A stretch of 64,000 bases of DNA from Chrysophaeum taylorii (lineage: Eukaryota > Sar > Pelagophyceae > Pelagomonadales > Pelagomonadaceae): the NCBI GenBank assembly GCA_029834535.1, contig JAQMWT010000058.1:1-64000 (forward strand), read 5' to 3'. This document shows, piece by piece, positions 1,919 to 52,147 of this stretch; position 1 is the stretch's first letter; each line of letters opens with the position of its first letter. The position numbers were made by a program, and so were the translations under genes. The notes beneath the pieces were generated by a model. That model saw only the letters and a list, made by a program, of their open reading frames with translations, was not told the origin of the DNA and ran no database searches.

Positions 1919-1948
1919 AATGCGGAGGAAAGGAGGCCGCAAAGCAAC

Positions 1949-3520: not shown

Positions 3521-3536
3521 CGATCCCAAAATATAA

Positions 3537-26760: not shown

Positions 26761-28214
26761 AGGGGAAGGAAGACATAATGAACTAACACACGAAAGCTAG
26801 AATAATTAACGTACAGGGAATGACAAGATGACACAGAATCGAAGGGAATGACAAGATGACACAGAATCGACACGAGATGACACAGAATCAACAGTGCGTG
26901 GTAAAACGCCAGTATTGTGGGTTTGAGTTGTTTCTCCATTTGTTTCTGAATAATGTGCGCTTTTGTCGACTTTGCGCGGTCGGCTCCGTTTGGCTCGACT
27001 TTGTTTTGCATGCTTTTTGTTTTGTCGGCTCTGGTTGGCTCGACTTTGTTGTGCACTTTTCTGTGGGGTTGTTGGTTCTTCGGAGTTCATGGGCTCGGAG
27101 AATGGTCGGTTCACGTGATGGGGTGATCAGTCCCAGTGAAACCGGCGCATTCTCATCAAACACAGGGGACAAGGGGGCAACAGCGGAAGAACAGGTGACA
27201 ATCGGGCAACAGCAGGAACAGGTGACAATGGGGCAACAGTAGACGAGAGCTTGGAAGCGTGATTCGAGAAAGTCGGAACAACGTTGAAGTTCCTTCGGTG
27301 GTTGACATTGCAGGAAATCTGATAAGCGAAACTGTCAGCAAAATCGAGGTCTGAAGAACAATAGCGACAAAAGTGCCTGGGATGACTTGCGTTAGGCGAT
27401 TGTGGCCACTGAGAATCGCAGCGGGGCAAAGATAGCGGGAACACAGGCTGGTATATATGAGGGCAGTGTACCAGACGTCTGATGAGAACGGTGCCTTTGG
27501 TCAGATATGTTGTATGGTGACCAGGTTATGACGATGGTCGGAGGCGACTGAAGCAAAAACAGGCGCAAACAGGGTTGATGCGAACGTTGGGTGTTGGGTT
27601 GTTGTGGCGCGAGCAAGTTGCCATGGGCACGACCGCGTCCTGTACGCGAAGATGGAAGACTTCGGACGCCCCAGCGATGTAAGGAACGAACACGGGTAGA
27701 CCAGGCTGCTGTATGCCAGCCTGCTGTGGCAGATAAAAAAGTGGCCCGTTTTCGCATTCGCAAGAACGAAGTTGCCATATGGGCCAACGTTGGAGGAGCA
27801 AGCGGCTAGCTTTGCTCGTCATACTCGAATAGACTGCGGTAGAAGTTGGCGATAGTGGCAAAACAGTTGTGGCACGTAAGAACGTTGCAGACAGCGTCGC
27901 AGTGACACGTAAGAACATTGCAGATAGCGTCGCGGGTGCTGAGCACGGAATTCACTGCGATAGCAAAACCGAATTTTAAAGGTCAGAAAAGCGGCGAAAA
28001 AGGCGACAGTGCGCGAAGGAGAACCACAACATTGTGTTGATACCGTAGACGAAGAAGCCGAATAACACAGCAAAGAAGCGTCGGTCCAGGATCCCGAAGA
28101 TGAGCGATCCAACCACATAGGAAGCACGAAAGTTGCGCACGCGAAAAATTGACAGGCGCAGCTTAGTGGCGGCGGGTGAAATGCGCGATGGAACGTGATT
28201 CGCTGGTTTTTTAC
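26761..28214. other. Unassigned stretch upstream of Copia-4
   Basis: No firm gene. A 28-bp unit (GAAGGGAATGACAAGATGACACAGAATC) is repeated two and a half times at about 26816-26888. Two copies of a TTGGCTCGACTTTGTT word lie near 26990 and 27040. On the minus strand, short open pieces at 26888-27172 and 27392-27918 may be decayed upstream parts of Copia-4, but no diagnostic motif survives. Confidence 0.4.
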
Positions 28215-28535
28215 CAAAACCGACAAGCACAACGAGGAGTGGATCAACGAATAGCAGAAAATGTAGAACGGGGAGTGGATCAACGAATAGCTGAAAATGC
28301 ACAACGGGGAGTGGAGCAACGAATAGGCGAAATACAGAACGAGGAGGGGGGCAACGACGAGGTGAAAAGACAACGAGGAGGGGAGCAACGACGAGATGAA
28401 AAGACAGAACGAGGAGAGGAGCAACGACGAGGGGAAAATACAGAACGAGGAGAGGAGCAACGACGAGGTCAAAATACAGAACGAGGGGTGGAGCAACGAA
28501 TAGCGGAAAATACAGAACGAAGGGCGCCTGTGCAA
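28215..28535. repeat. 36-bp minisatellite
   Basis: About nine units of roughly 36 bp, of the form GAACGAGGAGTGGAGCAACGAATAGCGGAAAATACA. Because 36 is divisible by three it stays open on both strands. On the plus strand (28176-28637) it reads as 12-residue ERGVEQRIAENT-like repeats, on the minus strand as hydrophobic LLLSSFCIFPSS-like repeats. Neither is good evidence for a protein. Confidence 0.85.
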
Positions 28536-29795
28536 TGGGAGCTAAAAACAAAAACGAGGGGCTTCCGTGGGATGGGGTTGTTGATGTGCTTGCGTCAGAC
28601 AACCGGCCGTACACACGCGGACGTGGGATTATCTTGATTGGCAGAAAGGTGCAATTATGATAAGACAGAGTATCGGGAGGTGGATGTGAGACGTTGGGTG
28701 TGGCCGTTTAAGGCGGTGAAGGGGGTGGAATAGATGGTGGTATTAAGAAAAGTGGCGGAGTGGAACTAGAATCAGTCAAGGTTGGAGTAGGCATAGGAGC
28801 AGAAAAGGTAGTGTTACTGGTGTTGGTTTTGGTGGGTTGGTGTTGTTGGGTGTTGTTGGAGTCATTGGAAGTGTTGCGCCGTTGAGAAGAACGGCGATGG
28901 TGGGTAGCGCGTTGTCGTGCAATAGCTAGGAACTCTGAAACTTGCGGCAGTCCCTCTTAAAGTGATCCTTGCAGCCGCCAAAATGACATTGGGTAGTGCG
29001 TCGGAATCGAGTAGAGCCAGGTTGTTGGGAAAGGGGAGCGTCGAGGGTAGGTCAGTTGGAAAAGTATGAATCGGGGTTGTGGCTGACGACGCGGCGGATA
29101 GCGCGACGGTAGTGGTTGTGCACGCCGATAGCGCGACGGTAGTGGGTGTGCATTGAACTTCTCGAGGGTACAACCACATTCACATACGAAACGCGAGACG
29201 ATAAAACAAAGCTAGTAAGTCGTGAAGCACGATGCACGTAGTCAAATGCGAGGACCCACTCGAGGGTGCGTCGGATCAGGTACAATGCCGAGCAACTTGA
29301 ACTCCGGTGATTGGTACAATGCCGAGCAACTTGTATACTCCGATGATGAACTTGTTGAGGAAGTTCGCTACGCGATCCCCACGGCCCATGTAGACATCGG
29401 TAATGCGCTTGAAAAGTCGCGTGAAGTTCATGTCGCGGTTTTCATGGATATCAACGCTGTTGCTTGACGCGAAATTCTTCTTCAGAGCAGCGAGATGCTG
29501 AGAAATTCTTCTTCAGAGCAGCGAGATGCTGAGATGCTAGTCCAGGGATCGTTGGTCGAGATAATGTGATCGCCGGTAGAGATGATCATGTTCGCAAGAC
29601 GACGTGGCCATTGGTGGGAAAAAAAATGTCGCTCACCGCTGAAGGCATCAAGTTTGTGCGAAAGCTTGCTAGCTTGAATTTCGATCGAGGACATGATAGA
29701 CGACAACGAACCGAACACGTAGCAATGAACTGAAGCCGAGAAGGAGTCGCCACGAAGTCAAGCACAGGCTCGATCGTGAACGAGCACCTGGTACC
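28536..29795. other. Unassigned repeat-rich stretch
   Basis: This contains a G/T-rich tract (TGGTGTTGTTGGGTG, about 28810-28860), a 31-bp tandem pair at about 29094-29155 (GATAGCGCGACGGTAGTGG) and a 31-bp tandem pair at about 29470-29532 (GAAATTCTTCTTCAGAGCAGCGAGATGCTGA). A plus-strand frame at 29222-29467 (81 codons; NAEQLVYSDDELVEEVRYAIP) looks protein-like in composition but matches nothing I know. Confidence 0.4.
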
Positions 29796-29958: not shown

Positions 29959-30335
29959 AACGGACGGAATAAGGGTAGGAGTTGGCAGATTTCTCTGCGC
30001 GCGTTATGCAGTTGTTCGTTGAACACCTCGTGCCCGAAACCGGCATCACGCAATACTTCCTGCAAGGCTTCTACACGCGGGAATCCGTCTTGCGCGGATC
30101 TAACGATCTAGTAGTCGCTCTCCTAAGCCACTGCATCAAGGAGCATGACAAGGACCCCGACAACTATGCCACCGCCGGCAATACTCAAGATTTCCAAGGC
30201 CGCTTCGTCTACTACAAGGTCGTCTACCGCAAGTTCGGCAAACACTTCCTCGAGACCGTATATTCAGTGAGATCAACCTTGTCCCTCACCCTTTACCTTC
30301 CCTACTCCCCTCTCATTCTCTACTAACGGCATCAT
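29959..30335 (+). other. Repeat Y/X unit with a 115-codon frame
   Basis: The left part (CGGACGGAATAAGGGTAGGAGTTGGCAGATTTCTCTGC) is the inner part of block Y at 7215-7260. The right part, 30262-30335 (ATTCAGTGAGATCAACCTTG...CTAACGGCATCA), is the same as 43644-43717. Between them an open frame (29982-30326) codes MADFSARVMQLFVEHLVPE..., ending ...KFGKHFLETVYS. It has a folded, protein-like composition but no family I recognise. It may be a small gene fragment carried by an element whose ends are Y and X, or a fossil LTR-element piece. Confidence 0.35.
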
Positions 30336-31291
30336 CCTTACTACTAATCGACAGATGTTTGTCTGTTTGTTTGATTGTTTTTTTGTCCCCCGATTTAGGG
30401 TAAGGATCAGGTAGGCCCGCGAGCCAGCCATTGATCCTCGAAGCCGTCTACGGCGACCTCGCAGACTATTTCCACGACCCGCGGCGGCTCTTTCAGCGCG
30501 CCATTCTCACGCCCCGTCGAAACGATGTTGTCGATGCTGACAACGCGCGCATGACCGCGGCCTTTTTTTCCCGGAGACGAGGCGTCGGAGTTCTTTTCGG
30601 CCGACTAGGTTGGGTCGGAAGACGACGCCTCGCTCTTTACAGTCGAGTTTTGAACTCCCTGACAACCAACGGCATGCTGACTTTGATCGCGAGCTTAAAG
30701 TCTTCGCAACCTCGACCCGTCGCACGGCCACTGCAACGGTACCAGATACATGATTGATCGTGTCGTTGTCACCGAGGCTCCTCCAACCTGTATCCCTTAA
30801 GGCCCGCCGACGCCAAACGATCACCAAGAGCCAGGGCCAGACGGCCCGCGAGGTCGGCGTCCTCTTGGCGAAGCCCGTCTTCTGCCACGTCCAGCTCGAC
30901 GTGGCTCTCTGTCGATCGGCAACCCCGAGGATATCCTCTTCTTGGTCGACGACTCCACCCTACTCCACACGTGCTCCGCAATACCGATAAGCCCCCTCCC
31001 GGCGTCTACGCGCGCACTGTAGGTGAACTTACTGGGACCAGGTGAACTTACTGGGGTTTGAGATTGGGACTAGGTGAATATAGTGACCAGGTGAACTTAC
31101 TGGGACCAGGTGAACTTACTGAGGTTTTTAGAGTAAACTCAAAGGTTAGCGGCGTGTGCGGATCAAAGCAGCTTAGATTGGCGGAGGCGAGAGCGACGAG
31201 CTCGAAGGAGTGGTGTGAGCACGAGTGGGTTTGCGCTGAACTTACTGGGGTTGGAGATTGGGACTAGGTGAACTTACTGGCCTGCACTTGT
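30336..31291 (+). mobile_element. Helitron-derived 3' fragment, copy 2
   Basis: A 956-bp unit from CCTTACTACTAATCGACAG to GCCTGCACTTGT. The helicase remnant gives ILEAVYGDLADYFHDPRR, LFQRAILTPR, a LRNLDPSHGHCNGT line and KSQGQTAREVGVLLAKPV: Pif1 motifs V-VI and the Helitron 3' helicase end. It is broken by frame changes and internal losses. The 3' portion (31021-31280) is an array of AGGTGAACTTACTGG words. It is followed without a gap by copy 3, so the copies are in tandem. Confidence 0.75.
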
Positions 31292-31321
31292 CCTTACTAC
31301 TAATCGACAGATGTTTGTCTG
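31292..31321 (+). mobile_element. Helitron-derived fragment, copy 3, left end split by Gypsy
   Basis: CCTTACTACTAATCGACAG followed by ATGTTTGTCTG is the left end of the same unit. The Gypsy element (31322-39355) is inserted here, duplicating GTCTG (31317-31321 and 39356-39360). The unit resumes at 39356. Confidence 0.8.
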
Positions 31322-31555
31322 TGTGGCGGTAACCGCCACCGCCACCACCTTAGTTCTCCACTGGACTTTTGCTGGACGCTACTTCAACCTAACGCACGTA
31401 TTACAACGCCACCAGGCGTTCCCCTTCGAATCGACTAATCTCAATCATAAATCTTCGAGTCATCGAAGCTCGTGGACAGTTGATTTTCACACGGAAGTCG
31501 AGGGCACCGTCGAAGCAGGGTAAGAAGTCGGAGCGCATAAACCTTTCCTGCCGCA
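31322..31555 (+). repeat. Gypsy 5' LTR, shortened
   Basis: It starts TGTGGCGGTAACC and ends CCTTTCCTGCCGCA, like the 323-bp 3' LTR, but is about 90 bp shorter inside. The outer boundary is fixed by the GTCTG target duplication. Confidence 0.85.
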
Positions 31556-31574
31556 GGTGGAGGAGGATATGAGA

Positions 31575-32310
31575 GGAAAGGATTATGCGCGCCGACTTCT
31601 TACCCTGCTTCGACGGTGCCCTCGACGTCTCGAGGGTTCCGAGCGGGTTGAGGAGCGCTTCCTTCCTGTCGATCAACCTTCAAACTGTCCACGAGCTTCG
31701 ATCCGAAGACTCGTGAAATGATTTATGGTCGAGATTAGTCGATCTGAAGAAGGGGAACGCCTGGTGGCGTTGTAATACGTGCGTTAGGGGTTGAAGTAGA
31801 GTCCAGTAGTCCAGTAGACGGGTAGAGAACTCGATAGAACTAAGGGGTAAGGATGGCGGTGTGAGGGTTACCGCCACAGGACTCCCCTGCTTCGATAGGA
31901 GCTGTCCTCAGCGACGGCTGGGGCGCGATTGAAGCGAACTTCGGTGCGGACCGTCGGGGGACGGGACTTGAGGGTGCGTCTGGTGAGCGCGTTGTTGAGC
32001 TTGTATTTGTTCTTGTTCTTGGCGCGCGCGATGCGCGAGGATATCTTTGACTCGCTGGACGACCGGGGGAGGAATCGATTTACCCTGAAGCTTGAACCGG
32101 GGAACCAGGACGTCGATCTCGTCCGGGGCGAAGTCGGTTACGCAAGGGGTGCACTGAGGCGTCAGCATCACGGGGCGAGTGAAGCTGCGACCGAGTGCCG
32201 TCTTGAATTCCGGGCTCAGCGTGCGAGCTTCAAGTGGCGAGGTCGGGTCGAAATACGATGGGTCGTCGCGCGGGCCCAAGTCGGAGTAAAAATGGAGCGC
32301 GACTCTGTCT
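31575..32310 (-). repeat. Inverted copy of the Gypsy 3' end (LTR plus ORF tail)
   Basis: About 736 bp here are the reverse complement of 38601-39348. They include a third LTR in inverted orientation (about 31575-31877) and the last 120 or so codons of the element's coding region (MGPRDDPSYFDPTSPLE..., read on the minus strand). The homology stops sharply at GACTCTGTCT. The two arms enclose the whole protease-integrase region. Confidence 0.9.
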
Positions 32311-32906
32311 GGGTACCCCCTTGGGGAGAGTGCGGCGTCGCCCTGGACGTTGAATCGGGGGCGAGGTCGTTGTCAGTTGAGGAGCCCGCTACGGAACCGA
32401 ATACGCCGGAACCGGAAGGGTCGAACGAGGCGGTTGAAACAGACCGGGATCTCGAGCTCTGCGAGCTCACAAGTTTCGAGGAAGTTCCCAGCTCGGAAGC
32501 ACCCCGCATGCGGCTAAGAAGCGACAGAGTGGGACGCCCGCGCCGAGGGTGGGGAGTATGGACGAAAGTCCAGGCACTCTGGAACAAAAAGAGCCCAGAG
32601 CGCCCAAAATCCCGGACTCGAGAGCACGAAGAAAGGGGCCGGCAGTGGCAGCGGAGAATCCATGAGCTTCCCGCCGACCCGCGAACGCACCGACAGAACT
32701 GGTGGTCGAGGGCCCGTCGTCTCGTCACGGAACGCGCGCACGTATCGATGCCGATGCCGGGGACAGAGGACGAAGCGATGTGCATGCACTCATCGGTCGC
32801 CTTCATCAACGCCGAAACGATCGACAGAGACCTACGCGTCCTCAACTGTTTGGAAGCCGGCAGCCTAACGTTCATGCCCATCCATATATTCGACAAAACA
32901 GGATAA

Positions 32907-35111
32907 TTGTGGTATGCCACGGTACTTGGGGTGGACGGGATGGCCGACGTCACCTACATCTGTCACGACCTTGCGCGCCTAATGAGGAAACGAGGCATGT
33001 TATTGGACAGCGGCAAACTGCCTTTCGAGCGCACGCTCTTCGGATCGGGAAAGAATACGTCCTCAATTTCGGAGTGGATTGCTCTGCGAATATCCGTCTC
33101 GGACGAAATGGCTGTGCCAGTCGTCGCCATCGTGGCACACACCAATAAACAAGTTCTGCTGGGAGCACGCGATATTCGAGCCTTGGGCGCTGTTGTCGAT
33201 TACCCACGAGACCGAATTTCCTTTTGGAGAACCCAAACAGCCTTCCGAATGATGAAGCTACCATACGCAGGAGAGATTGCACGGTCACCCGCTATCCTCT
33301 ATCGGACAGCTTACGAAGCACACCCCGTCGTAGCGCCGATTTATGGGTCCCGAGGGCAAGCGCTGGCGCAAAGTCGGAGTCAAGGCGGCGAGAGAGCTCC
33401 CCTACCCCTCCTCACGGCAGAGGACCTCCTCTCGCCGCCTCCTCCGCGGGCATCGGCCGCCATCACCTTAGCCGAGGACCCATCTATGCCGAGCAACGAC
33501 CTAAAAACGCCCGCGCCCGAGATCCGAGCGTTCGCGACCGGCTCCCAGCGTATCGACCCCGGTCGAACCCACAACATCCCGATCAAGCTGAGCCACGCGC
33601 TGAAGCCCGGAGAAGCCTTCGTCGCCGTTGCGCCGAGCCTAGAGCACATCGGCATCGTCGCCGGAACCTGCTCGACATATGACCGCTCCGACCCAACTGC
33701 GGCCGCGGTGGCCGTATCTTCGATCGACGACACGCCGATGTCGATCCTCCCAGGTCAAGAACTTGCACGGGGAGAAATCGTCAACTGCCAAGAAGAAGTT
33801 CAGGTGACAACCCCGTGGCCAAGCGCCAACCCCGGAAACCCGCACGAAAGCGAGCACGAGGGCACGGCCTCCTTCACGGTCTCGATCACCAGCAACCCAA
33901 CTCCAGACCCCGGAGACACCAACGGTCAAGCACTTCGAACATCATCAATCAAGCCGCGACTGCAAGCCCCACAGACGCAAGGAGCGCTGACGTCTCGAAC
34001 CGCTGAAAAAGCGATCATCGACAAGCACCAGGCGCTCTCCTGGATCCCGGAGAACGTGACGCCCGTAGTAATGTTCTTCGGCGGGATTGGAGGAGGCACA
34101 CAGGGTATATATCGGAGCAACGAATGGTTCGGAGCCGCGTACAAGGTCGTGCTCGTCATTGACGCATCCGACACCGCCAAAGACATCCATGAGAGAAACT
34201 TTCCAGGAATACCTGTCGTCCAGCACACCCTCGGCGGTCGGTATGACAGGGTCCTTTCATTGGTCAAGGGTTACTTGCATGAAAGCCTATGGCCCACGGC
34301 CCTTTTCGTTGGCACACCACCATGCGTCGATTCCTCCCTGTGCAACCTTACGGCCCGCGACGCTGGGAAAGGAGCCTCCGCAACCAATTGGACCATCAAG
34401 CTCTTTCAGCTCTCCGGAGTAGGACGCTGGATCATCGAGCAGGAACCTTCCATTCGCTCGAGAATCACGCTGAGGCAAGGGTTCATCACCGTCGTCGACC
34501 TATGGACGACGACGCCGGACCTCATGAGCACCCGTCGACGCATGATCATTACGAGCTGGCCTCTCGAGCTCATTCGACGGCCCAAAACGTGCGGCACTAT
34601 TCAAGATACCTTCGCCGCCAAACTCGGACTCGACCCTGCGCAGCCTCTCATCCAGCGCAACAACTTTGGATGCATCCGAGAGGCCACGGCACCGATATAC
34701 ACCATCACGCGGAAAGGAGTGCGAACAGGACCCACGCCATCGGACACCAAAGCACTCAGCACTCAAAATAGAGATGCTCGCGGAGGCTCTCACAATGCCG
34801 AGCGATCTCGCATGGGGTCACCTCACAGTCACGGACCGAATGAAGCATCTAGCGGCCGTGATACCCCCGTCTTCCATGGCATATATCGCTATTCACGCAC
34901 ACAACGCACTCCCGCCCCCGCTCCGCAACGTTGGAATCGCGCGCCCGAACGTAGTCGTACCCACCGACAGACCCTCGGAAACATACATCATCGAGCGCGT
35001 CCCCTCCACCCCCGTCCGCGTGGGAACCATCGCACCCGCGCCCCGACGCGCCCTCGTGAACGTTTCAACTCGCGCAATTCACTGGGTGCCGAACCGCGAC
35101 CTCCAGGATAA
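32907..35111 (+). CDS. Gypsy protease plus cytosine-5 methyltransferase-like domain
   Basis: An open region of about 734 codons. At about 33000-33240, RGMLLDSGKLP and VLLGARDIRALGAVVDYPRDR are the active site and flap/C-terminal lines of a Gypsy retropepsin. From about 34020 the sequence turns into a cytosine-5 DNA methyltransferase: FFGGIGGGTQGIYRS (motif I, AdoMet binding) with VLVIDASDTAKDIHERNFP after it; FVGTPPCVDSS (motif IV, with the catalytic Pro-Cys); WIIEQEP where motif VI (ENV) is expected; and STRRRMIITSW (motif VIII). A motif X-like PP..MAYIAIHAH stretch lies at about 34865-34900. Between protease and methyltransferase there is a Pro/Thr/Ser-rich linker. The enzyme would add methyl groups to cytosine C5. 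The variant motif VI and the short target-recognition region leave activity open. Confidence 0.75.
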   Translation: MWYATVLGVDGMADVTYICHDLARLMRKRGMLLDSGKLPFERTLFGSGKNTSSISEWIALRISVSDEMAVPVVAIVAHTNKQVLLGARDIRALGAVVDYPRDRISFWRTQTAFRMMKLPYAGEIARSPAILYRTAYEAHPVVAPIYGSRGQALAQSRSQGGERAPLPLLTAEDLLSPPPPRASAAITLAEDPSMPSNDLKTPAPEIRAFATGSQRIDPGRTHNIPIKLSHALKPGEAFVAVAPSLEHIGIVAGTCSTYDRSDPTAAAVAVSSIDDTPMSILPGQELARGEIVNCQEEVQVTTPWPSANPGNPHESEHEGTASFTVSITSNPTPDPGDTNGQALRTSSIKPRLQAPQTQGALTSRTAEKAIIDKHQALSWIPENVTPVVMFFGGIGGGTQGIYRSNEWFGAAYKVVLVIDASDTAKDIHERNFPGIPVVQHTLGGRYDRVLSLVKGYLHESLWPTALFVGTPPCVDSSLCNLTARDAGKGASATNWTIKLFQLSGVGRWIIEQEPSIRSRITLRQGFITVVDLWTTTPDLMSTRRRMIITSWPLELIRRPKTCGTIQDTFAAKLGLDPAQPLIQRNNFGCIREATAPIYTITRKGVRTGPTPSDTKALSTQNRDARGGSHNAERSRMGSPHSHGPNEASSGRDTPVFHGIYRYSRTQRTPAPAPQRWNRAPERSRTHRQTLGNIHHRARPLHPRPRGNHRTRAPTRPRERFNSRNSLGAEPRPPG

Positions 35112-38100
35112 ATCGAAATGGCAACCACCGGACCTTCCGTTGACCGCTCCGAAGCCCGCTGCATCAGGGACGATGCACTCATCTTACCAATGGGGTACCC
35201 GCGCGAGCAAAACCGATGCAACCTCGAAGGGCAAACCAAGGGAGGGAAAACCAACCAAGGAACCGACGAGCGACAAAACCAAAACCAAAGAGCTCGCCCG
35301 GTTCAAGTACGAGGAATGGTTTGACGTGCCATGGAAAAACGCACCCCGAGACGAAGACGGAGCACCGCTACCGCAACAGCCCAACCATCTGAAAGGGAAC
35401 GCGGCCATGGTCGTCAAGAACCCCACGAAAGAAGAAGTAGACAAAGCCGTCGAGGAGCTAGGCATCCCGAATAACCCTCATCTGGACGAAGACGCCAAAA
35501 TCATGTTGGCACATTGCGTTCGATATTCCTGGGCGTTCTTCGACCCCATCATGAGACCCGTGGACTCTCGGCCGGTATCCCTCCGATTCAAAGACGCGGA
35601 CCCAAAGCCCATCAAGATGTCGCCGTACCGCTTGACTCCCGCCAAGATCGAATGTCTCCGACTGCAGATCGCCGAATGGTGCAGAGACGGAGTCATCAGA
35701 CCGGCCGAATCCCCCTGGGGATTCCCGGTCCTGATGCTCCCGAAGAAAGGTGCAGAGCTCGGAACATCTAACGCCTTCCGCGCGGCTGTCGACTTACGCC
35801 AGCTCAACGAGCAGTTGGTCGACAACAGCTGGCCGAATGTACCGCAGGAGGACGCCCTAGCGTTCCTGGCCGGCCGAAGGTTCCGGACATCGATCGACAT
35901 TCGGTGGGGGTACCACAACCTTCGACTGGACCCGCAGGCACAGGACGCCGTGACAATGGCCAGCCCGCTCGGAGCCCACAGCTTTCTCCGACTGCCCCTG
36001 GGAGTGAAGACCGCAGGCGCCCTCTTCTGCAAGCAGATGACAGCCGACCTCGCTAAATGGATGTACCGAGATCTGGTCAGCTTCATCGACGACATTATCA
36101 TGGGAACGGACAACGTCCACGATCATTTGCAGTGCCTAATCGAAGTCCTCTCCCACTTGGCCGCCAAAGGATACAGTGGCCGGACAGCCAAATTCCACCT
36201 GCTCCGAGACGAAATCGAGTTCCTGGGTCATATCTCGACCCCCGACGGATTAAAGCCTAACCCCAAAACGTCGGAGGCACTACGAAAGATGCCGATTCCT
36301 GGGACTCTGCCGAAAACCTCCCCGAAGACGCAAATCCGCTCATTCATCGGGATGAGCAACTACTGCCGGAGATACATCAAGGACTACTCCAAGATCGCGG
36401 AGCCCTTGCGACGCCTGACGTTAGAGGAAGTGCCGTTCAAATGGACGTCAGAGTGCCAAAAGGCATGGGACACCATCATCGACGCACTAGCAGACTCCCG
36501 CGGAGTGTACCATCCAGATTACGACCTCCCCTTCCACATCCGAACCGATGCCTCCAAAGATGGTCTCGGAGCTTATCTCTTCCAAATCGTCGAAGTCCAA
36601 GACGACAAGGGTCACACCAGTCGGGAGGAACGAGTCATCGAGTACTCGAGCCGAGCGGTGCCCAATGAGATGCGTAATTATGAGCCGCGCCGTCTGGAGC
36701 TCCTGGGGGTGATCCTGTCTCTCGAACACTTCCGCCCATTCATCGAAGGCCACCGAACCGTCCTCGAAACCGACCACCGGAATCTGACCTTCCTCCGGAA
36801 CACAACCCACTCCACCGGGCAGCTCGCCCGATGGGCAATGCGGCTGGCCAATTTCGACCCCGAACTCGGTTACAAGCCCGGCAAGTCCCCGGGGATGAGT
36901 ATCCCCGACTGCCTATCGAGGAATCCGATCGACCACGTCATCGAGACCGACGAATTCGGAGAGCCGCTCAATCACGCGTACTTGGTCGTGCAAGAGCTGC
37001 CGCTCCCCGCCGGCGAAGCCGGATGTCACGTCATTCTCAACTTGGCGCAGACAGAGATACCCGAGGACCTCGAGGACCCTCCGGACGATCCGATGGGTTA
37101 CGCCGCCTCCCACGCCACGCAACATCGCAAGAAAGTGGCCCTGAGGTCGCGCAAGCCGCCATTGCAAACCGACGTCGGGCTACAGAAGGAATTCGTCGAC
37201 AAAATTCCTGACAACATCTCCCTGGAAGAGGTTGCTGAGGCCCAAAAAGATGACCCTCTATGCGATAGTATCCGCACCGGGATGAACCAGAGCGATGCTC
37301 GCCGCCGATTCGGAGCCAACGTCCGGTATGATGTATGGAAGGGAGTTTTGTACCGATATGACATCGACCTCCGACCGGTGATCGTAGCACCCTCGGCGTT
37401 GCGAGAGAGGATCATGCGCATCTACCACAGTTCGCCCCTGGGAGGACATCTCGGACGCGATAGCACCGTCAACGCGATCGCCGAACGGTTCTGGTGGCCG
37501 CGCATGTCCCACCAGGTTGGAGTCTTCGTCAACGCATGCCTGGTTTGTCAAAAATCGCGAACCCCGGAGCCAAAGCGAAAAGGGATGCTCCAGCAGCCGA
37601 TATACGACGGAGACGGCGCCGTTCTGTGCATGGACCTTTTCGGACCTCTGCCGAGCGCCGGCAAGTCCACGTACATCCTCGTGATGTTCGACCCGTTCTC
37701 GCACTATCTGGTCTTGGACGTCATAAACACCAAGCACGCCGACGCCATCTTAGAATCCTTCGTGCGAAACATCCTCCTTCAAGGATTCCTCCCGCGGATG
37801 ATCCTCACCGACAATGGTCGCGAGTTCGTCAACCGGTTGCTACGGGCCTTCCTCGTGGAATTCGACGTCCGGTACAGAACAACGATTCCGTACCACGCCC
37901 AAGCGAACCCCGCGGAGCGAGTCAATCGGTTCCTCAAGGCGTTCCTCCGAGCCTGCCTCGAAGGTCGCAGCGTCACCGACTGGCCGGCCTTCGTCCGGTA
38001 CGTATCGTTCTGCTACAACCGAAAGTTCATTCCCGGCACGCAAATCTCCCCATTCATGTTGCGCCTGAACCGGCAGCCCATGTTGCCCACAGACTACACC

Positions 38101-38202
38101 TTGTTAGTTCAACCGGATCCCGTGCTGCCGCGACCCCGACGCGCCCCTGGAGATCAAGCAAAACCTCCAGTACTACTCAAAGGTCGTCGCAAAAGCACAT
38201 GA
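34666..38202 (+). CDS. Gypsy pol: reverse transcriptase, RNase H, integrase
   Basis: An open region of about 1178 codons. Reverse transcriptase: PYRLTPAKIECLRLQI and WGFPVLMLPKKG (about 35620-35750), FRTSIDIRWGYHNLRLD (about 35880-35930) and the catalytic FIDDII (about 36082). RNase H: FHIRTDASKDGLGAYL (about 36530), ELLGVILSLEHFRPF and ETDHRNLTFL (about 36770). Integrase: an H2C2 finger (HLGRDSTV...CLVCQ, about 37445-37550) and the DDE core with CMDLFGP, LTDNGREFVN and PAERVNRF (about 37630, 37808, 37912). The first 100 or so codons include the methyltransferase C-terminal-like stretch and a Lys-rich linker. Domain lengths are normal for Gypsy and all catalytic acids are present. Confidence 0.9.
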   Translation: MDASERPRHRYTPSRGKECEQDPRHRTPKHSALKIEMLAEALTMPSDLAWGHLTVTDRMKHLAAVIPPSSMAYIAIHAHNALPPPLRNVGIARPNVVVPTDRPSETYIIERVPSTPVRVGTIAPAPRRALVNVSTRAIHWVPNRDLQDKSKWQPPDLPLTAPKPAASGTMHSSYQWGTRASKTDATSKGKPREGKPTKEPTSDKTKTKELARFKYEEWFDVPWKNAPRDEDGAPLPQQPNHLKGNAAMVVKNPTKEEVDKAVEELGIPNNPHLDEDAKIMLAHCVRYSWAFFDPIMRPVDSRPVSLRFKDADPKPIKMSPYRLTPAKIECLRLQIAEWCRDGVIRPAESPWGFPVLMLPKKGAELGTSNAFRAAVDLRQLNEQLVDNSWPNVPQEDALAFLAGRRFRTSIDIRWGYHNLRLDPQAQDAVTMASPLGAHSFLRLPLGVKTAGALFCKQMTADLAKWMYRDLVSFIDDIIMGTDNVHDHLQCLIEVLSHLAAKGYSGRTAKFHLLRDEIEFLGHISTPDGLKPNPKTSEALRKMPIPGTLPKTSPKTQIRSFIGMSNYCRRYIKDYSKIAEPLRRLTLEEVPFKWTSECQKAWDTIIDALADSRGVYHPDYDLPFHIRTDASKDGLGAYLFQIVEVQDDKGHTSREERVIEYSSRAVPNEMRNYEPRRLELLGVILSLEHFRPFIEGHRTVLETDHRNLTFLRNTTHSTGQLARWAMRLANFDPELGYKPGKSPGMSIPDCLSRNPIDHVIETDEFGEPLNHAYLVVQELPLPAGEAGCHVILNLAQTEIPEDLEDPPDDPMGYAASHATQHRKKVALRSRKPPLQTDVGLQKEFVDKIPDNISLEEVAEAQKDDPLCDSIRTGMNQSDARRRFGANVRYDVWKGVLYRYDIDLRPVIVAPSALRERIMRIYHSSPLGGHLGRDSTVNAIAERFWWPRMSHQVGVFVNACLVCQKSRTPEPKRKGMLQQPIYDGDGAVLCMDLFGPLPSAGKSTYILVMFDPFSHYLVLDVINTKHADAILESFVRNILLQGFLPRMILTDNGREFVNRLLRAFLVEFDVRYRTTIPYHAQANPAERVNRFLKAFLRACLEGRSVTDWPAFVRYVSFCYNRKFIPGTQISPFMLRLNRQPMLPTDYTLLVQPDPVLPRPRRAPGDQAKPPVLLKGRRKST

Positions 38203-38224
38203 GCAGGCCAAGAAATCGCAGAAG

Positions 38225-38998
38225 GTGGCGTACGACGCCGAGCACGTCGACGTCGAATACAACGTCAATTCACATGTGCTGCTGTACATTCCGCAGTCCC
38301 AAAACAAGTTGCGACCGGAATGGCGTGGCCCTTTTCTCATCACCGAGCGCCTATCACCCGTCTCGTACAAGATCCGGTCGGTTTACGGAGCCCCCGAAGA
38401 GCGAATCGTATCGGTCCAACAGATCACCCCGGTATCTATGCCTCCCGCGCTCGACGCCACGATCCGTCGTCCAAGCCCCGGGTTCCGCGACGATTACGAG
38501 CGCGGCAAGCTCGTCATTTTCCGCATCCCGTCGGCCCGGGACCCCGATTGGCGCAAGAAGCTTTATGTCGCCGAGGTTTCGAGGATTATGATGATCTTCA
38601 AGACAGAGTCGCGCTCCATTTTTACTCCGACTTGGGCCCGCGCGACGACCCATCGTATTTCGACCCGACCTCGCCACTTGAAGGTCGCACGCTGAGCCCG
38701 GAATTCAAGACGGCACTCGGTCGCAGCTTCACTCCCCCCGAGAAGCTGACGCCTCAGTGCACCCCTTGCGTAACCGACTTCGCCCCGGACGAGATCGACG
38801 TCCTGGTTCCCCGGTTCAAGCTTCAGGGTAAATCGATTCCTCCCCCAGTCGTCCAGCGAGTCAAAGATATCCTCGCGCATCGCGCGCGCCAAGAACAAGA
38901 ACAAATACAAGCTCAACAACGCGCTCACCAGACGCACACTCAAGTCCCGTCCCCCGACGGTCCGCACCGAAGCTCGCTTCAATCGCGCCCCCGCCGTC
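38225..38998 (+). CDS. Gypsy integrase C-terminal GPY/F module and tail
   Basis: VLLYIPQSQNKLRPEWRGPFLI is the GPY/F module that follows the integrase core in many Gypsy elements. It is followed by YKIRSVYG and a hydrophilic tail that runs to about 38998 (SLQSRPRRR). The tail's last 0.4 kb is the part duplicated in inverse near 32 kb. No clear chromodomain was recognised. Confidence 0.7.
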
Positions 38999-39032
38999 GC
39001 TGAGGACAGCTCCTATCAAAGCAGGGGAGTCC

Positions 39033-39355
39033 TGTGGCGGTAACCCTCACACCGCCATCCTTACCCCTTAGTTCTATCGAGTTCTCTACCCCACTTCCCG
39101 TCTACTGGACTTTTTGCTGGACTCTACTTCAACCCCTAACGCACGTATTACAACGCCACCAGGCGTTCCCCTTCTTCAGATCGACTAATCTCAACCATAA
39201 ATCACTTCACGAGTCTTCGGAGCGAAGCTCGTGGACAGTTTGAAGGTTGATCGACAGGAAGGAAGCGCTCCTCAACCCGCTCGGCACCCTCGAGACGTCG
39301 AGGGCACCGTCGAAGCAGGGTAAGAAGTCGGCGCGCATAATCCTTTCCAGCCGCA
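39033..39355 (+). repeat. Gypsy 3' LTR
   Basis: 323 bp, TGTGGCGGTAACC...CCGCA. It is preceded by AGCAGGGGAGTCC, a polypurine tract, and followed by the GTCTG target duplication (39356-39360). Confidence 0.9.
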
Positions 39356-40346
39356 GTCTGTTTGTTTGTTTGTCCCCCGATTTAGGGTAAGGATCATGTA
39401 GGCCCGCGAGCCAGGCATTGATCCTCCAAGCCGTATACGGCGACCTCGCAGACTATTTCCACGACCCGCGGCGGCTCTTTCAGCGCGCCATTCTCACGCC
39501 CCGTCGAAACGATGTTGTCGATGCTGACAACGCGCGCATGACCGCGGCCTTTTTTTCCCGGAGACGAGGCGTCGGAGTTCTTTTCGGCCGACTAGGTTGG
39601 GTCGGAAGACGACGCCTCGCTCTCAAGAGTCGAGTTTCGAACTCCCTGACAACCAACGGCTTGCTGACTTTGATCGCGAGCTTAAAGTCTTCGCAACCTC
39701 GACCCGTCGCACGGCCACTGCAACGGTACCAGATACATGATCGATCGTGTCGTTGTCACCGAGGCTCCTCCAACCTGTATCCCTTAAGGCCCGCCGACGC
39801 CAAACGATCACCAAGAGCCAGGGCCAGACGCCCCGCGAGGTCGGCGTCCTCTTGCCCAAGCCCGTCTACTGCCACGCCCAGCTCTACGTGGCTCTCTGTC
39901 GATCGGCAACCCCGAGGATATGCTCTTCCGAGTCGACGACTCCGCCCTACCCCACACGTGCTGCGCAATACCGATAAGCCCCCTCCCGGCGTCTACACGC
40001 GCACTGTAGGTGAACTTACTGGGACCAGGTGAACTTACTGGGGTTTGAGATTGGGACTAGGTGAATATAGTGACCAGGTGAACTTACTGGGACCAGGTGA
40101 ACTTACTGGGGGGTTTAGAGTAAACTCAAAGATTAGCGGCGTGTGCGGATCGAAGCAGCTTAGATTGGCGGAGGCGACAGCGACGAGCTCGAAGGAGTGG
40201 TGTGAGCACGAGTGGGTTTACGCCGAACTTACTGGGGTTAGAAATTTGGATTAGGTGAACTTACTGGCCAGGTGAACTTACTGGGACCAGGTGAACTTAC
40301 TGGGATTAGAGATTGGGACTAGGTGAACTTACTGGCCTGCACTTGT
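39356..40346 (+). mobile_element. Helitron-derived 3' fragment, copy 3, main part
   Basis: This continues the unit interrupted at 31321: TTTGTCCCCCGATTTAGGGTAAGG, then the helicase remnant (ILQAVYGDLADYFHDPRR, RNLDPS..CNGTR, KSQGQTPREVGVLLPKPV), then AGGTGAACTTACTGG words at about 40010-40336, ending CCTGCACTTGT. It is frame-broken but very similar to copies 2 and 4-6, which points to recent spread or homogenisation. Confidence 0.75.
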
Positions 40347-40425: not shown

Positions 40426-43400
40426 GTTATGAGCATCAGGCCTGGCCCTGGGGACCCTCACCGTGAAGTGGGAGGACGATCGACACCGCGCTCTCAGGCC
40501 GACGCAAATCCGGCAAAAGGTGTTCCGGAGTCAACCGGTCAAATCCTTCCGTCAAGAACGACAACCCGAGATCCGGCATCTCGAAGATCAAGCTGCCACC
40601 ATCCTCTGAGGCCGTCGATCCGACTCCTCCACAAACCGCTCCGCCATCGCGAACCTCTTCACCATCGCGAGCACCCGATGTCCAGCCCGATAAGCCCTAT
40701 TACCCGCGCTTGGACGCCCGTGATGCTGGGTATGCAGCGCACTGCGCCGGACTTGCACTTCAAGGCCCTACTTATCTCGACGCCTTCTTAGCCCAAGAAG
40801 CGGCTAACCGCGCGAAACTTGCACTCGAACTTCAAGACACCCTCGAAGCATCTGTTGTGGCCAAAAGTGCGAGGCGCGCTCTCGACGACCACGACGCTCT
40901 CTTGGCCTCGCGTGCGGCTGCCAGTGCCAAGTGAGCTCTCCGTGACGCACGTAGCGCTTCTGATGCGGCTCTCCACGCCAAACGTGCCCTTCTCCGCGAC
41001 GCTCGCCGCGCCGCCCGCTACGTCTCCGCTGCGGCCGACCGCACCACTCGTGCTCCCCGCGACGCTTGCGAAGCGCCAGCTGCGGCCAAACGGGCCAATC
41101 GCGCTCTCGACCGCACCGCTCGTCGCGACGCCCGTGAAGCCTCCGCTGCTGCCAACGTGGCTGATGCCGTCAACGCCTCTGTTGCGGCCGATCTCGCCCG
41201 ACGTGCTCTCGACGCCGCCTTTTCCGATGCTTCCGAAGTTCCCGTTGCCACCTCTCCCGCGACACGACCCCTCGCAACAGCCGACGCAGTAGTTGACGCC
41301 CACCACGCTGACGTTGATGCAACCCAAGCTCACCGCGATCTCGACGCTTTCGCTGCCGAAGTTGCGGCCAACGACGCGCACCGCGCCCTCCGTGCTGCAC
41401 ACGCCGACCCCGCCGCGGCTCCTCGCGCCCCAGGCGAACTCGACGTTGCCTCACGCCCCCACCCTGAAGTTCCCCGAGCCCAACGTGTCACCGCCTCGCT
41501 TCACCGCACTCACAGCGACACCACCTTGCTCGCCACCTCGGTGCGTTCGCGCACGCAACCCCGCGCCACCCGGCAGCACTGTCACTCGAGCCCCGACAAA
41601 GCGCACGGACTCGACCCGACCGACTCCCGTGATGACGGGGAAGTTATACGTCTTTCTCCCGATCCTCCGAACCTCGCCACACGTACTCGGTCCGACGGGG
41701 AAGTCATACATCTCGTCCCAATCACCTCGACCCTCGACTCAAGTACTCGGTCTGACGAAGAAGTCCCTCAGACCCTTTACCCGTGTCATCGGTCAGACAA
41801 GGAAGACGAAGAGGTTCACAGCCTCAACCTACACGCGAACATCGACCCGCGTACCAGACTCGCCAACATCGACCCGCGCACCCGACTCGCCAAGGAAGTT
41901 CAAGCCCTAACTGCCCTCGAACTCCCCAAGCACATAGATCCGCGCACTCGACCCGACGAGGACATCGATACCCGCGACACGCGTGTCCGATCCGACTCGG
42001 AACCCACCACCCGTACATTCCCAGCACCGGCTTGTGCTCCGCCCATTATGGACGCCCATCGTCCCCACGCGTATCACCTGTCACCCCGCACTCGGTCCAC
42101 CGCGGACTATCCAAGTCTCGACCCACGCATTCGGTCCGGCCACGTTCACGGCCACAACCCGTCCGACTCGTACAACCAAACGGCACCCCACAGTGATTGT
42201 CAACCCAGCATCACTGCACTGCCGCGCAATACGTTGATCCCGCAAGCCTCGCAACCTCCCCAGTCGCCTCTTCTTGCTGAGCAACGCCCGTATGACTCGA
42301 CCGGTCTCCTTCCTCCCGACGAAGCCGGCGGTCTTGATCTCGACGAACCAGCCCCGGGTGAAACCGACACGCCGGACACCATCTCTAGCCCCCATCCGGC
42401 CCTCACATGGTCTCCACACCCGTGTGGCCTGACACCAACATCAACTCTGCTGTCGCCATCACGCGCGAGTCGCCCCTCTCCCAAGAGATTCGACTCGAGG
42501 GGGTGAAGCCTGCATCATCGTCGCACACACGTAATTCACAAGACTCACTTCTCGCTACGTGCACCGCCGATTCCTCCAATGATCGCGCAGACGTTGGCTA
42601 CGCCAAAGCCACGCCGCAGCCCCACTGCATCCGCCTACTCCAAGCATGTCCGAGTTCTTGCCACTTGAATGCACAACAGCTGACCTGTGCAACACCCGTG
42701 AGAAACAGCTCTTCAAGCTAGACCTCACCGCCAACGAGATCAGGATGTCAACACAACCTTTGACACCTGTAGTCCCTGCATACACACAGGCGCAGCAAAC
42801 AAACTTCATACGTGGACAACTGGAACCCACAGACTTTCACCAGCATGACCACTTGACCTATGAGGACACTTGTCAGCGTACAACTACAGTCTCTGGCTCT
42901 ACAGACGCTGAAGCCGTGATGAACGCCTTACTCACCCTGCTCACAGATGAGGTATCGCGTGACATTCTCACCACCAAGTTCACCTACAACGAGTTTACAA
43001 GCGATTACACAGTCGAATTGAAACATGACTACACTGTCCCTGTACACGACATGCATACAGCTCACCTTAAGAATCAGCTGCAATGCAAATCGCACACCAG
43101 GGGGTGTGAGATACACATGCTCTCTGCCTTGAACAATACGATGATCTCACGAAGCACGTGCATCGCGTCAAACATCAGCTGTTGTTCTTACGCCTATGAA
43201 CATTTTAAGTCAGACGCTGAAGCATACAAGTTACATTCCCGCGCTAAAGACTCTGGACTACTTGCATCACTCCAAGACCATCTGCAAGTCCCGAGCAAGT
43301 TCATATGGACACTACCAACCCACCACTTCACAGTGGGCCTCCCAGGCCACTGCACTGGCTGATCTAAACAAACCTGCACCCTCAATCATTCCTCATCACT

Positions 43401-43643
43401 TCATGGCACGTCAACAACAACAAGATCGCCTGATGTTCCCGTGCCTCCTGCTTAGTAGTCAAGGAAATCAACGTGAACCGCGCTCACGGCTCAGTTCACA
43501 TGCATCGCTGTCTTGTGGAACGATTCCACCGCCCCTCACCTTTACGTCTCCCATCGTCCGTCTTGACTGAGTCATGACACGTATGTACGAACTACCTACG
43601 ACCTTCATGCTTACCCCGAGCACCGAAGTATCGTTCGAGGGGG
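40426..43643 (+). mobile_element. Unclassified LTR-like unit with Ala-rich repeat protein
   Basis: Between the 79-bp repeats lies a C-rich plus-strand unit. At about 40700-41450 the translation is Ala/Arg/Asp-rich with helical repeats (ARRALDDHDALL, ADLARRALDAAF). It runs into a 449-codon frame (41157-42506) whose later part repeats a R(T/I)RSD-x-E-V-type word many times. A further 238-codon frame (42646-43362) has no known domain. A purine tract (TTCGAGGGGG, about 43634) then precedes a TG...CA segment (43644-43717) that looks like a short 3' LTR. No reverse transcriptase or integrase is visible, so if it is an LTR element it is non-autonomous. It is treated here as a fossil. Confidence 0.4.
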
Positions 43644-43717
43644 TGTTCAGTGATATCAACCTTGACCCTTACCCTTTACCCTCCCTACTCCCCTCTTATT
43701 CTCTACTAACGCCATCA
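43644..43717 (+). repeat. Short LTR-like segment X
   Basis: 74 bp, TGTTCAGTGATATCAACC...CTAACGCCATCA, preceded by a purine tract. A close copy lies at 30262-30335. It has TG...CA ends as in an LTR, but no matching 5' copy was found at the other end of the unit. Confidence 0.5.
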
Positions 43718-43916
43718 TATGAAACCAAATGGAAGCAACCGCTCCACCCCAGCCAGATCAGCCACATCAACAAGTGGGTGATTCCACTTCCTTGAAGTAT
43801 ACGAACCGAAACTCCAAGAACTCAAAGACCAAGACCAAGATACGACCGATACGACGAAAGGAAAGTTATATCCGATCACGCAACCCCACCTCCAAGGAAA
43901 AGAAGCCGACTTCGTC

Positions 43917-46423: not shown

Positions 46424-46691
46424 GGATCTCAGAAAACTCACTGCCGCCTTGCAAGCCGGCAAATTACGACTACCTCAACTTGACTTGGCTGTCTTCACCT
46501 TGCCTTGTCAACACCTGAGTGTAATGAAAGACTACGATGGCTATGCCACTCCAGCAACTGCCGATCTCTTCGTCAAATAACAAATTCGCTTTGTTCGTTG
46601 CACGCTCCCGACATACACCATTGTCGAGAACGTACCACCAAACCCGAAAACCCACAAAGAGTACACCCAACTCGCAAAATGCTATCGACGC

Positions 46692-49165: not shown

Positions 49166-49246
49166 ATTGAGCGGATTAAAGCACAGGCACAGTTTCCAGC
49201 AGAAGCACGGCAAGAGGACCCGCTTCCAGCTATAAGCGACCAGCCA

Positions 49247-49975: not shown

Positions 49976-50164
49976 TCTGTTCTGGTCGATCACCAAGACA
50001 ACGACAATTCTGTTCTCGAGAATTATGTATGCCATGACGAATTGTCACCGGCAGAGTACTATGCGCGTCAACGGAACCAATAATTCAGTTGTAGTTCCTC
50101 TTTCTTATGGGACATCTCAGCGCATCAGCACTACCACATAGCCTCTCGTCACAGACACGCCTTC

Positions 50165-52107: not shown

Positions 52108-52147
52108 TCCAGATTTCGCTCACCGAGTTCAATCCGTGAGGGGGGCG

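Follow-up and report, generated by a model that had tools for sequence, protein, structure and literature searches.

A C5-cytosine methyltransferase-type domain within the Pol polyprotein of a Ty3/Gypsy family of Chrysophaeum taylorii, and a different one in Ty1/Copia elements

A domain of the C5-cytosine methyltransferase (C5-MTase, DNMT) type is very probably a standing part of a Ty3/Gypsy retrotransposon family of Chrysophaeum taylorii, where it lies inside pol between the protease-like region and the reverse transcriptase (RT). One copy is found in a 64,000-nucleotide stretch of contig JAQMWT010000058.1 (referred to below as the window), and the domain occurs at no fewer than 200 distinct places on 165 contigs, among the matches listed. 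DNMT-bearing retrotransposons have already been reported, mainly from dinoflagellates and from one charophyte (de Mendoza et al. 2018, PMC5890265). The C. taylorii elements are of this known kind, here in a new lineage: the host belongs to the Pelagophyceae (stramenopiles), in line with the initial annotation, which had raised the prospect of a lineage other than those two.

The window copy spans positions 31322–39355, as delimited by a 5-bp target-site duplication (GTCTG) found by reading at 31317–31321 on the left and 39356–39360 on the right. Its 3′ LTR (TGTGGCGG...GCCGCA) occupies 39033–39355 on the forward strand. The 5′ LTR (31322–31556, same strand, start placed by reading) is partly deleted, and its segment 31357–31556 matches the 3′ LTR at 73% over 256 columns. 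Both LTRs and the short target-site duplication are thus described from the window copy alone. The Ty3/Gypsy order protease–RT–RNase H–integrase is present, with forward-strand Pfam matches for the RT (RVT_1, 35740–36234, 46.2 bits), the RNase H (RT_RNaseH, 36517–36855, 88.3 bits) and the integrase (H2C2 zinc binding and rve core, 37390–37896, 68.3 and 44.9 bits), and with the protease recognized by reading only. Retropepsin-like motifs (LGVDGMADVTYI ... LLGARDIRALGAVVDY) lie on the forward strand at approximately 32907–33240; the D is kept, DTG having become DGM, and this region of the window copy gave no match in a Pfam search and is 54% identical to its counterpart in subfamily B, defined below. 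The description of an otherwise standard Gypsy element holds for the RT–RNase H–integrase part but fails at the 5′ end, where 31575–32310 is an inverted copy (reverse strand) of the element's own 3′ end, comprising LTR and end of pol. This region forms 97–98% inverted repeats with 38601–39348, and 31800–32310 matches, inverted, positions 7987–8497 of a sister copy (L039). A DIRS-like repeat arrangement was considered for this inverted 3′ end; no repeats of 60 bases or more were found in the stretches of two other copies (L039 and L040), which span less than whole elements. With its rearranged 5′ end and a frameshift within the DNMT domain, the window copy is defective.

The DNMT domain of this copy is divergent and extends from 34026 to about 35055 on the forward strand. 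Its frame A part (34026–34766) contains motif I (VVMFFGGIGGGTQG, 34065–34106, predicted to bind AdoMet), the PPC of motif IV with the presumed catalytic cysteine (34317–34325), WIIEQEP at the motif VI position (34428–34448), STRRRMII as motif VIII (34527–34550) and the start of the target-recognition region. The frame B part (34759–35055) contains, as read by eye, a motif IX-like EMLAEALTMP and a motif X-like PPSSMAYIAIHAH at 34864–34902. Motif I and the C5-MTase motifs are named here after their usual definitions. All the motifs listed by the initial annotation could be located by reading at 34065–34902, in the order given there and between the protease-like region and the RT. The motif X-like segment stands in another frame than motifs I–VIII because of a frameshift of the window copy at 34757–34766, the frame A match ending at 34766 and the frame B match starting at 34759. 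A programmed frameshift was set aside, since L039, a copy of the same subfamily, reads through the DNMT region in a single 1856-aa frame. In the Gypsy domains, motif I (LFSGAGG or FFGGIGG) and the Pro-Cys of motif IV follow in order; motif IV reads PPCV instead of PPCQ, and motifs VI (EQE for the canonical ENV) and VIII (SxRxR for QxRxR) keep their Glu and Arg with altered neighbors.

At least 150 matches to the Gypsy domain were obtained in the C. taylorii genome, and three subfamilies of DNMT-bearing elements could be distinguished: A, with the window copy and L039, B (L040) and C (L073). A search for further Gypsy copies with the domain had been suggested, with its absence from every other copy as a refuting outcome; that outcome is false. 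A protease-like region was found upstream in 31 of 33 rows, corresponding to 29 of 31 distinct loci, and an RT downstream in the same proportions (31/33 and 29/31). Conversely, a listed DNMT lies upstream of 84 of 138 RT matches, at a median offset of 1556 bases, and the single RT match read among those apparently lacking the domain carries one. The catalytic Cys of motif IV and the Glu of motif VI are each kept in 20 of 21 A copies and the Arg of motif VIII in all 21; the three residues are kept in 8/8 B copies and in the C copy. Median dN/dS values of the domain, lowered by the use of stop-free copies only, are 0.245 within A (36 pairs), 0.082 within B (21 pairs) and 0.074 between B and C (7 pairs); a single pair of subfamily B proteases gave 0.248. 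The domain thus lies within Pol of many Gypsy copies and under purifying selection. Between A and B, identity amounts to 48% in the DNMT and 83% in the RT; the integrase comparison gave no match, probably because the compared B stretch stops short of the integrase.

The Pfam profile PF00145 (cut-off 22 bits) had been suggested as a check, a missing score counting against the domain. The window stretch itself does not score, nor does L039, but the family does: domain slices of the B copy L040 and the C copy L073 reach 26.7 and 26.3 bits, subfamily B in its whole frame remaining below the cut-off at 19.2 bits. A more sensitive comparison was provided by a profile of 15 stop-free Gypsy copies, which aligned with 96 DNMT2-type proteins at an hhalign probability of 97% (E 4e-11, score 83.8), whereas the controls reached 28.7 with the reversed profile and at most 25.2 among 59 shuffles of its columns. 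Another run gave E 1.4e-10, and four phage C5-MTases gave E 1.6e-7; the profile match is confident over motifs I–IV, motifs VI–X being assigned by eye. A DNMT2-type HMM scored C, B and A at 39.1, 34.3 and 19.6 bits, with a shuffled maximum of 1.0 (200 shuffles, 91 of them reported by the search). Subfamily B also matched a PHROG 'DNA methyltransferase' profile at 32.4 bits. With NCBIfam TIGR00675 (cut-off 100.65), B and C scored 18.4 bits, and the host DNMT2 (53.9) and the Copia domain described below (34.9) were also under the cut-off. PDB matches are weak, with DNMT2 at E 0.04–0.21 and unrelated proteins at 0.19–0.38, and the single-sequence AlphaFold model of the domain is unusable (pLDDT 35). 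A model built with the DNMT2-type alignment reached a pTM of 0.59, and 26 of its 28 PDB matches at E ≤0.001 are C5-MTases with low TM-scores (0.34–0.45), both results being partly circular. Taken together, the profile comparison, the catalytic residues retained in nearly all copies compared and the low dN/dS support a maintained, presumably catalytic, enzyme.

The class of the Gypsy domain is less clear. PDB matches lean weakly toward DNMT2. A specifically DNMT2-like character was rejected as a claim, because panels of equal depth fail to separate the classes: 30 draws of four DNMT2 sequences gave medians of 26.5 for C and 24.6 for B, and four phage C5-MTases gave 21.5 and 24.6. The PPCQ and CFT motifs of the DNMT2 panel consensus are absent from A, B and C, which show PPCV and no CFT. 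The host DNMT2 (L001) and DNMT5 (L002) of C. taylorii are stand-alone frames outside pol; they belong to the same C5-MTase family as the Gypsy domain, but neither is closely similar to it or to the Copia domain. Some similarity to the Gypsy domain is shared by the host DNMT2, with an hhalign E of 6e-4 and a probability of 28%.

A second DNMT family, unforeseen by the initial annotation, is carried by Ty1/Copia elements and is also represented in the window. The Copia element body extends over 43743–51151 on the forward strand, with gag at 43743–45392, pol from 45356 to beyond 50757 and RVT_2 at 50408–51151; no LTRs were found in 42000–54000. Its DNMT domain (46256–47361, forward strand) is interrupted by one TAA and by frameshifts, and its three pieces are 69–87% identical to another copy (L042), whose domain slice scores 35.8 bits with PF00145. 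This family accounts for 118 matched stretches in the genome, with a protease upstream in 36 of 38 rows and an integrase downstream in 34 of 38. The PCQ residues are each kept in 34/35 copies and the ENV residues in 32–34/35; motif I is degenerate. The Copia domain matches a phage-type C5-MTase profile (E 8e-6), and its score with the deep DNMT2 panel does not exceed those of its own shuffles. A genome search with PF00145, in which 123 of 474 candidates were scored, yielded 57 places, none near a listed Gypsy place. Of these, 46 adjoin listed Copia copies, and the remaining 11 include two host genes and two places (L003, L005) that are Copia by sequence. Profile comparison detected no mutual similarity between the Gypsy and Copia domains, and since they appear unrelated at this level, two separate captures in this genome are likely.

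The explanation that we favor, and hold to be quite probable as a whole, is that a Ty3/Gypsy family incorporated a C5-MTase into its polyprotein, giving the arrangement (gag)–protease–DNMT–RT–RNase H–integrase, and would have retained it under purifying selection while spreading to at least 200 places as three subfamilies. A Ty1/Copia family would separately have acquired a different C5-MTase at the analogous site, after the protease. In the likeliest mechanism, the domain would be made, and presumably packaged, as part of Pol. Inside the particle or the pre-integration complex it would methylate cytosines in the nucleic acid of its own element, a new copy then arriving pre-marked. This explanation builds on the observed domain, its place in the order, its copy number, its kept catalytic residues and its constraint; catalysis, packaging, DNA rather than RNA as substrate, and a benefit to the element are inferred. 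That the element's own DNA is methylated by the domain is accordingly proposed as a tentative reading. CpG observed/expected ratios in the elements are 1.03–1.25, with no depletion, and C-to-T change at CpG versus CpH (4.3% versus 3.6% in A, 1.3% versus 1.4% in B, 3.5% versus 3.2% in Copia) leaves no clear 5mC footprint.

Fortuitous similarity, or the isolated insertion of a methyltransferase-like stretch into a single Gypsy copy, might be suspected from the lack of a Pfam match in the window copy and from the unusable single-sequence fold prediction. It is refuted, to the point of being negligible, by the copy number, with a fixed neighborhood at 200 places or more, and by the sister copies, one B and one C copy exceeding the PF00145 cut-off and profile matches standing far above shuffles. 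A former methyltransferase kept in a non-catalytic role, such as nucleic-acid binding in the particle or a structural function, would fit the non-canonical motifs VI (EQE) and IV (PPCV), the lack of a Pfam match in subfamily A and the larger A–B divergence of the DNMT compared with the RT. It is nevertheless improbable in view of the Cys, Glu and Arg maintained in nearly all A copies examined, all eight B copies and the C copy, and of the well-kept PCQ and ENV residues of the Copia domain.

The Gypsy domain could also act like DNMT2, which is a tRNA C38 methyltransferase, and methylate RNA, either the genomic RNA of the element or the tRNA primer. LTR elements use tRNA primers, DNMT2 enzymes are the only C5-MTases reached in the PDB, whether from the Gypsy profiles or from the C copy, the DNMT2-type HMM outscores PF00145 for C (39.1 versus 26.3 bits) and for B (34.3 versus 26.7), and the CpG mutational footprint is not clear. 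An RNA substrate is rendered unlikely, however, by the similar scores of the equal-depth DNMT2 and phage panels and by PPCV standing in place of PPCQ without CFT, both motifs being present in the DNMT2 panel. Less likely still is the fuller scenario in which different C5-MTases were captured by two LTR superfamilies of one genome at the same site downstream of the protease, the Gypsy domain being an RNA methyltransferase of DNMT2 affinity whose substrate is genomic RNA or the tRNA primer. If true, the Gypsy domain would be a retroelement-encoded RNA m5C writer, and we know of no other.

Among the closest published parallels is KnitGypsy-Dnmt3 of Klebsormidium nitens, with a C5-MTase in Gypsy Pol, several copies, Ka/Ks < 0.2 and key residues kept (PMC5890265). 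The C. taylorii family shares the location in Gypsy LTR Pol, the multiple copies, the purifying selection and the kept residues. KnitGypsy-Dnmt3 has a charophyte host, a Dnmt3-type domain and a DIRS-like repeat arrangement, whereas in C. taylorii the host is a stramenopile, the lean is weakly toward DNMT2, the window copy has ordinary LTRs and there is an additional Copia DNMT. When expressed in yeast, the KnitGypsy-Dnmt3 domain gave no detectable methylation, a result termed inconclusive by its authors (PMC5890265). In Symbiodinium, SymbioDIRS-Dnmt3 and SymbioLINE-Dnmt account for hundreds of intronless DNMT copies in retrotransposons, and the SymbioDIRS enzymes performed de novo CG methylation in yeast (PMC5890265). 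As in C. taylorii, more than one retroelement class per genome is concerned; the elements are there DIRS and LINE, the host is a dinoflagellate and activity has been demonstrated, whereas the C. taylorii domains are known from sequence. For streptophytes and dinoflagellates, some DNMT3 members are stated to reside inside Copia LTR elements and DIRS elements (PMC12344493); the C. taylorii Copia domain scores with phage-type C5-MTase profiles.

Gypsy and DIRS retrotransposons that encode DAM or DCM are stated to occur in stramenopiles and in other groups (PMC6338049), a statement that pools adenine and cytosine enzymes and whose available passages name no stramenopile C5-MTase element. The Sola1 element of Ectocarpus, a DNA transposon, carries an N4mC/N6mA methyltransferase (PMC12477816) and differs from the LTR elements described here both as an element and in its type of enzyme. 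The open-access literature, as far as its accessible passages go, yielded no C5-MTase in a retrotransposon of a pelagophyte or other named stramenopile, although the general statement of PMC6338049 cuts against a flat claim, and a term search of the main text of the C. taylorii genome paper (PMC10366177) found neither 'transpos' nor 'retro'. Among 5.8 billion protein sequences, candidates preselected by length and shared 5-residue words gave no match at E 1e-3 for the Gypsy region (2329 candidates) or the Copia region (3329 candidates), and viral contigs and bacterial and archaeal genome contigs gave none either. The published survey scanned the proteomes of 96 genomes with PF00145 (PMC5890265). 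Since the Gypsy domain scores close to or under the cut-off of this profile, similar domains may have been missed elsewhere. With two numerous DNMT-bearing LTR superfamilies and unlike domains in one stramenopile, capture would appear to recur, and the slot after the protease may tolerate or even favor it. Since C. taylorii is cultured and has been sequenced with long reads (PMC10366177), an element-written epigenetic mark would be testable in this host.

The Ty3/Gypsy element of the window lies on the forward strand at positions 31322-39355, with a 5-bp GTCTG duplication on either side. Its 323-bp 3' LTR is found at 39033-39355 (+), the matching 5' LTR being partly deleted. In an upstream frame (32907-35111, +), a retropepsin-like region, recognized by reading and with no Pfam match, precedes the C5-cytosine methyltransferase (DNMT) stretch. 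The downstream part of pol (frame 34546-38202, +) displays by Pfam the RT, RNase H, integrase H2C2 and rve domains in their usual order. The DNMT motifs reported at 34020-34905 in the initial annotation are indeed present, and in the order described. This copy is defective: a frameshift at about 34757 to 34766 moves the last motif into another frame, and on the 5' side the element's own 3' end, inverted, replaces part of the upstream coding region, which might be a product of self-integration or template switching. The inverted segment (31575-32310, matching 38601-39348) adjoins the 5' LTR of the element; KnitGypsy-Dnmt3, the DNMT-bearing Gypsy of Klebsormidium nitens, was published with DIRS-like repeats. 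A block of more than 0.8 kb is directly repeated on both flanks (30369-31210 and 39356-40197, spacing 8987), so that the element is located at a tandem duplication. At the D-T/S-G position of the protease active site, reading gives DGM in Gypsy (window 32925-32960, and L040, a copy of subfamily B) and DGG in L042, a Ty1/Copia copy.

Since the window copy alone has no Pfam match, the question of the METHYLTRANSFERASE domain is judged on the family, which comprises subfamilies A (that of the window), B and C. The PF00145 (DNA_methylase) check is divided: it fails for the window stretch and succeeds for domain slices of one B copy (26.7 bits) and one C copy (26.3 bits; cut-off 22 bits), with a match spanning motifs I-II only. 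Within its whole frame the B copy scores 19.2 bits, under the cut-off, and no Gypsy copy is among the 57 places listed by the genome-wide PF00145 search. A profile of 15 stop-free Gypsy copies aligns with 96 DNMT2-type proteins over 80 columns (motifs I-IV; probability 97%, E 4e-11) with a score of 83.8, compared with at most 25.2 for 59 column shuffles and 28.7 for the reversed profile; against four phage C5-MTases, E is 1.6e-7. The DNMT2-type HMM gives 39.1 bits for C, 34.3 for B, 19.6 for A, 17.2 for the host DNMT5, 81-87 for the phage C5-MTases and at most 1.0 for shuffled sequences. Motifs VI to X, aligned by eye only, include WIIEQE/WLIEQE, STRRR/SSRVR, an EMxxExLTMP-like stretch and VxPP. 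PDB sequence searches rank DNMT2 first, but the match is weak (E 0.04-0.21), and unrelated proteins come in at E 0.19-0.38. AlphaFold yielded no usable model from the window sequence alone (pLDDT 35). With a DNMT2-type alignment, pLDDT, taken by tens, ran from 73 to 94 in the first 100 residues and stayed under 50 for most of the final 90 (pTM 0.59). Foldseek matches to this model at E 0.001 or better were C5-methyltransferases in 26 of 28 cases, with low TM-scores, the other two being an adenine and a carbon methyltransferase; this structure test is partly circular because the DNMT2-type alignment was fed in.

The proposed recurrence of the domain in further Gypsy copies is borne out. At least 150 matches to the DNMT stretch were found in the assembly (70.8 Mb, 697 contigs), and three pooled searches give at least 200 distinct places on at least 165 contigs. 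These numbers are slightly inflated, as contig pairs C25/C521 and C10/C297 show the same matches at nearly identical places, as if they were separate haplotypes. Subfamily A accounts for 24 among the matches listed (identity 81-100%); B shares about 50% identity with A, and C about 80% with B. A listed DNMT lies 1.2-1.9 kb upstream of at least 84 of 138 RT matches, a lower bound since one of the remaining 54, when read, holds a frameshifted C-type DNMT. Among 33 Gypsy neighbourhoods, an upstream protease-like region and a downstream RT were each found in 31, or in 29 of 31 distinct loci once two repeated rows are discounted (L010 for L039, an A copy; L033 for L040); the C copy L073 is too short for either, and L025 and L026 resemble two versions of one place. 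Between L039 and L040, identity is 83% in RT and RNase H, 54% in the protease, 48% in the DNMT and 41% in the linker: the upstream module of pol either evolves faster or has been exchanged. Frame lengths of C copies on contigs C5 (548353, 524295), C22 and C472 suggest that some encode DNMT and RT together in a single frame of about 3063 aa, and others in two frames (1840-1842 and 1102-1209 aa), the break falling between DNMT and RT.

A second DNMT is found in a Ty1/Copia family, to which at least 48 of the 57 listed PF00145 places belong (46 by position; L003 and L005 by sequence). In the 1801-aa frame of L042, the PF00145 match (residues 349-475) follows a protease-like region and precedes rve/RVT_2; 118 stretches match this DNMT region. 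Across 38 neighbourhoods (35 distinct loci), 36 have the upstream protease and 34 the downstream integrase. Of 35 copies, 34 retain any given residue of PCQ and 32-34 any given residue of ENV; the median dN/dS is 0.221 (25 copies, 300 pairs). Phage-type profiles recognize the Copia domain, with 24.5-26.7 bits and an hhalign E of 8e-6; DNMT2 profiles do not (-1.8 bits; E 0.012 with a deep DNMT2 panel, no better than shuffles). The single PDB match of the Copia domain is a cytosine-specific methyltransferase (E 0.27). No similarity to the Gypsy domain was detected (E 0.73), a comparison limited by the shallow Copia diversity. The simplest reading of these sequences is two separate DNMT captures, both directly after the protease.

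The window also holds a Copia DNMT copy, in pieces, at 46256-47361. Positions 1272-1535 of L042 match window 30000-30262, and the adjoining 1531-8500 match 43797-50757. An interruption of about 13.5 kb, which takes in the whole Gypsy element, may therefore divide this Copia copy, so that perhaps one DNMT-bearing element is nested in another. Other Copia-like pol fragments lie on the minus strand at 10666-10911 (51% identical to L042) and 12314-13654 (23%), with a weak rve match in frame 12575-14284 (minus strand).

Retrotransposon DNMTs were already known from DIRS and LINE elements in Symbiodinium and from Gypsy in Klebsormidium (PMC5890265). Chrysophaeum taylorii, a pelagophyte and hence a stramenopile, has them in Gypsy and Copia LTR elements. 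DAM- and DCM-encoding retrotransposons are said in general terms to exist in stramenopiles (PMC6338049). As far as our searches of the open-access literature show, the new features are a stramenopile host identified by name, dissimilar DNMTs in two LTR superfamilies of one genome, and a Gypsy DNMT that scores near or under the PF00145 threshold applied in the published survey. Judged by host and element, the captures are likely independent of the known ones.

As part of Pol, the DNMT would enter the particle together with RT and integrase, where it could act on genomic RNA, the tRNA primer, the RNA-DNA hybrid or cDNA. Self-methylation of retrotranscribed DNA has been proposed for such retroelements (PMC5890265), and we tentatively retain it as the leading mechanism, possible rather than probable. 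The footprint data give it no support: the elements have 1.03-1.25 times the expected CpG, and C-to-T changes at CpG versus CpH number 626/14550 versus 843/23734 in A (20 copies), 57/4357 versus 147/10232 in B (8 copies) and 511/14640 versus 1397/43062 in Copia (30 copies). Heavy 5mC usually leaves far more CpG C-to-T than A and Copia show, where the excess is slight. We know of no strong CpG loss in Aureococcus; yet this pelagophyte with DNMT5 is reported to be heavily methylated (PMC9998398), so the test has little power.

Besides methylation of its own DNA by the element, the Gypsy DNMT may target RNA, or its role may be non-catalytic. In subfamily A, 20 of 21 copies retain the presumed catalytic Cys, 20 of 21 the motif VI Glu and all 21 the motif VIII Arg; in B, all 8 copies retain each of the three. 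This is only modestly above background, since mean identity already reaches 90% (A) and 99% (B). For the DNMT, 36 pairs among 9 A copies have a median dN/dS of 0.245, and 21 pairs among 7 B copies one of 0.082; the 7 B-C pairs, at dS 1.6, give 0.074. The adjoining linker and RT start in A come to 0.289 (11 copies, 31 pairs); using only stop-free copies and excluding pairs with dS up to 0.01 biases these values towards constraint. For A-B and A-C pairs, saturated dS gives no ratio.

Two host genes were also identified. L001 is the host DNMT2, a 360-aa frame from the PF00145 search, 100% identical to CTAYLR_008533 of C. taylorii; its contig also bears an RT match of the Gypsy family at 90066, and Gypsy elements thus lie beside algal genes. 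L002 is the host DNMT5, whose sole PDB match, 7r76, deposited as 'Rad8', we take to be Cryptococcus DNMT5. Seven PF00145 matches above the cut-off are not near any listed Copia or Gypsy place (C193:27577, C395:19786, C23:3967, C216:62478, C104:69944, C683:49402 and C683:59821). Direct repeats are also seen in the window at 28192-28545, with copies mostly 36 bases apart, and at 26293-26672, where a 190-base unit occurs twice.
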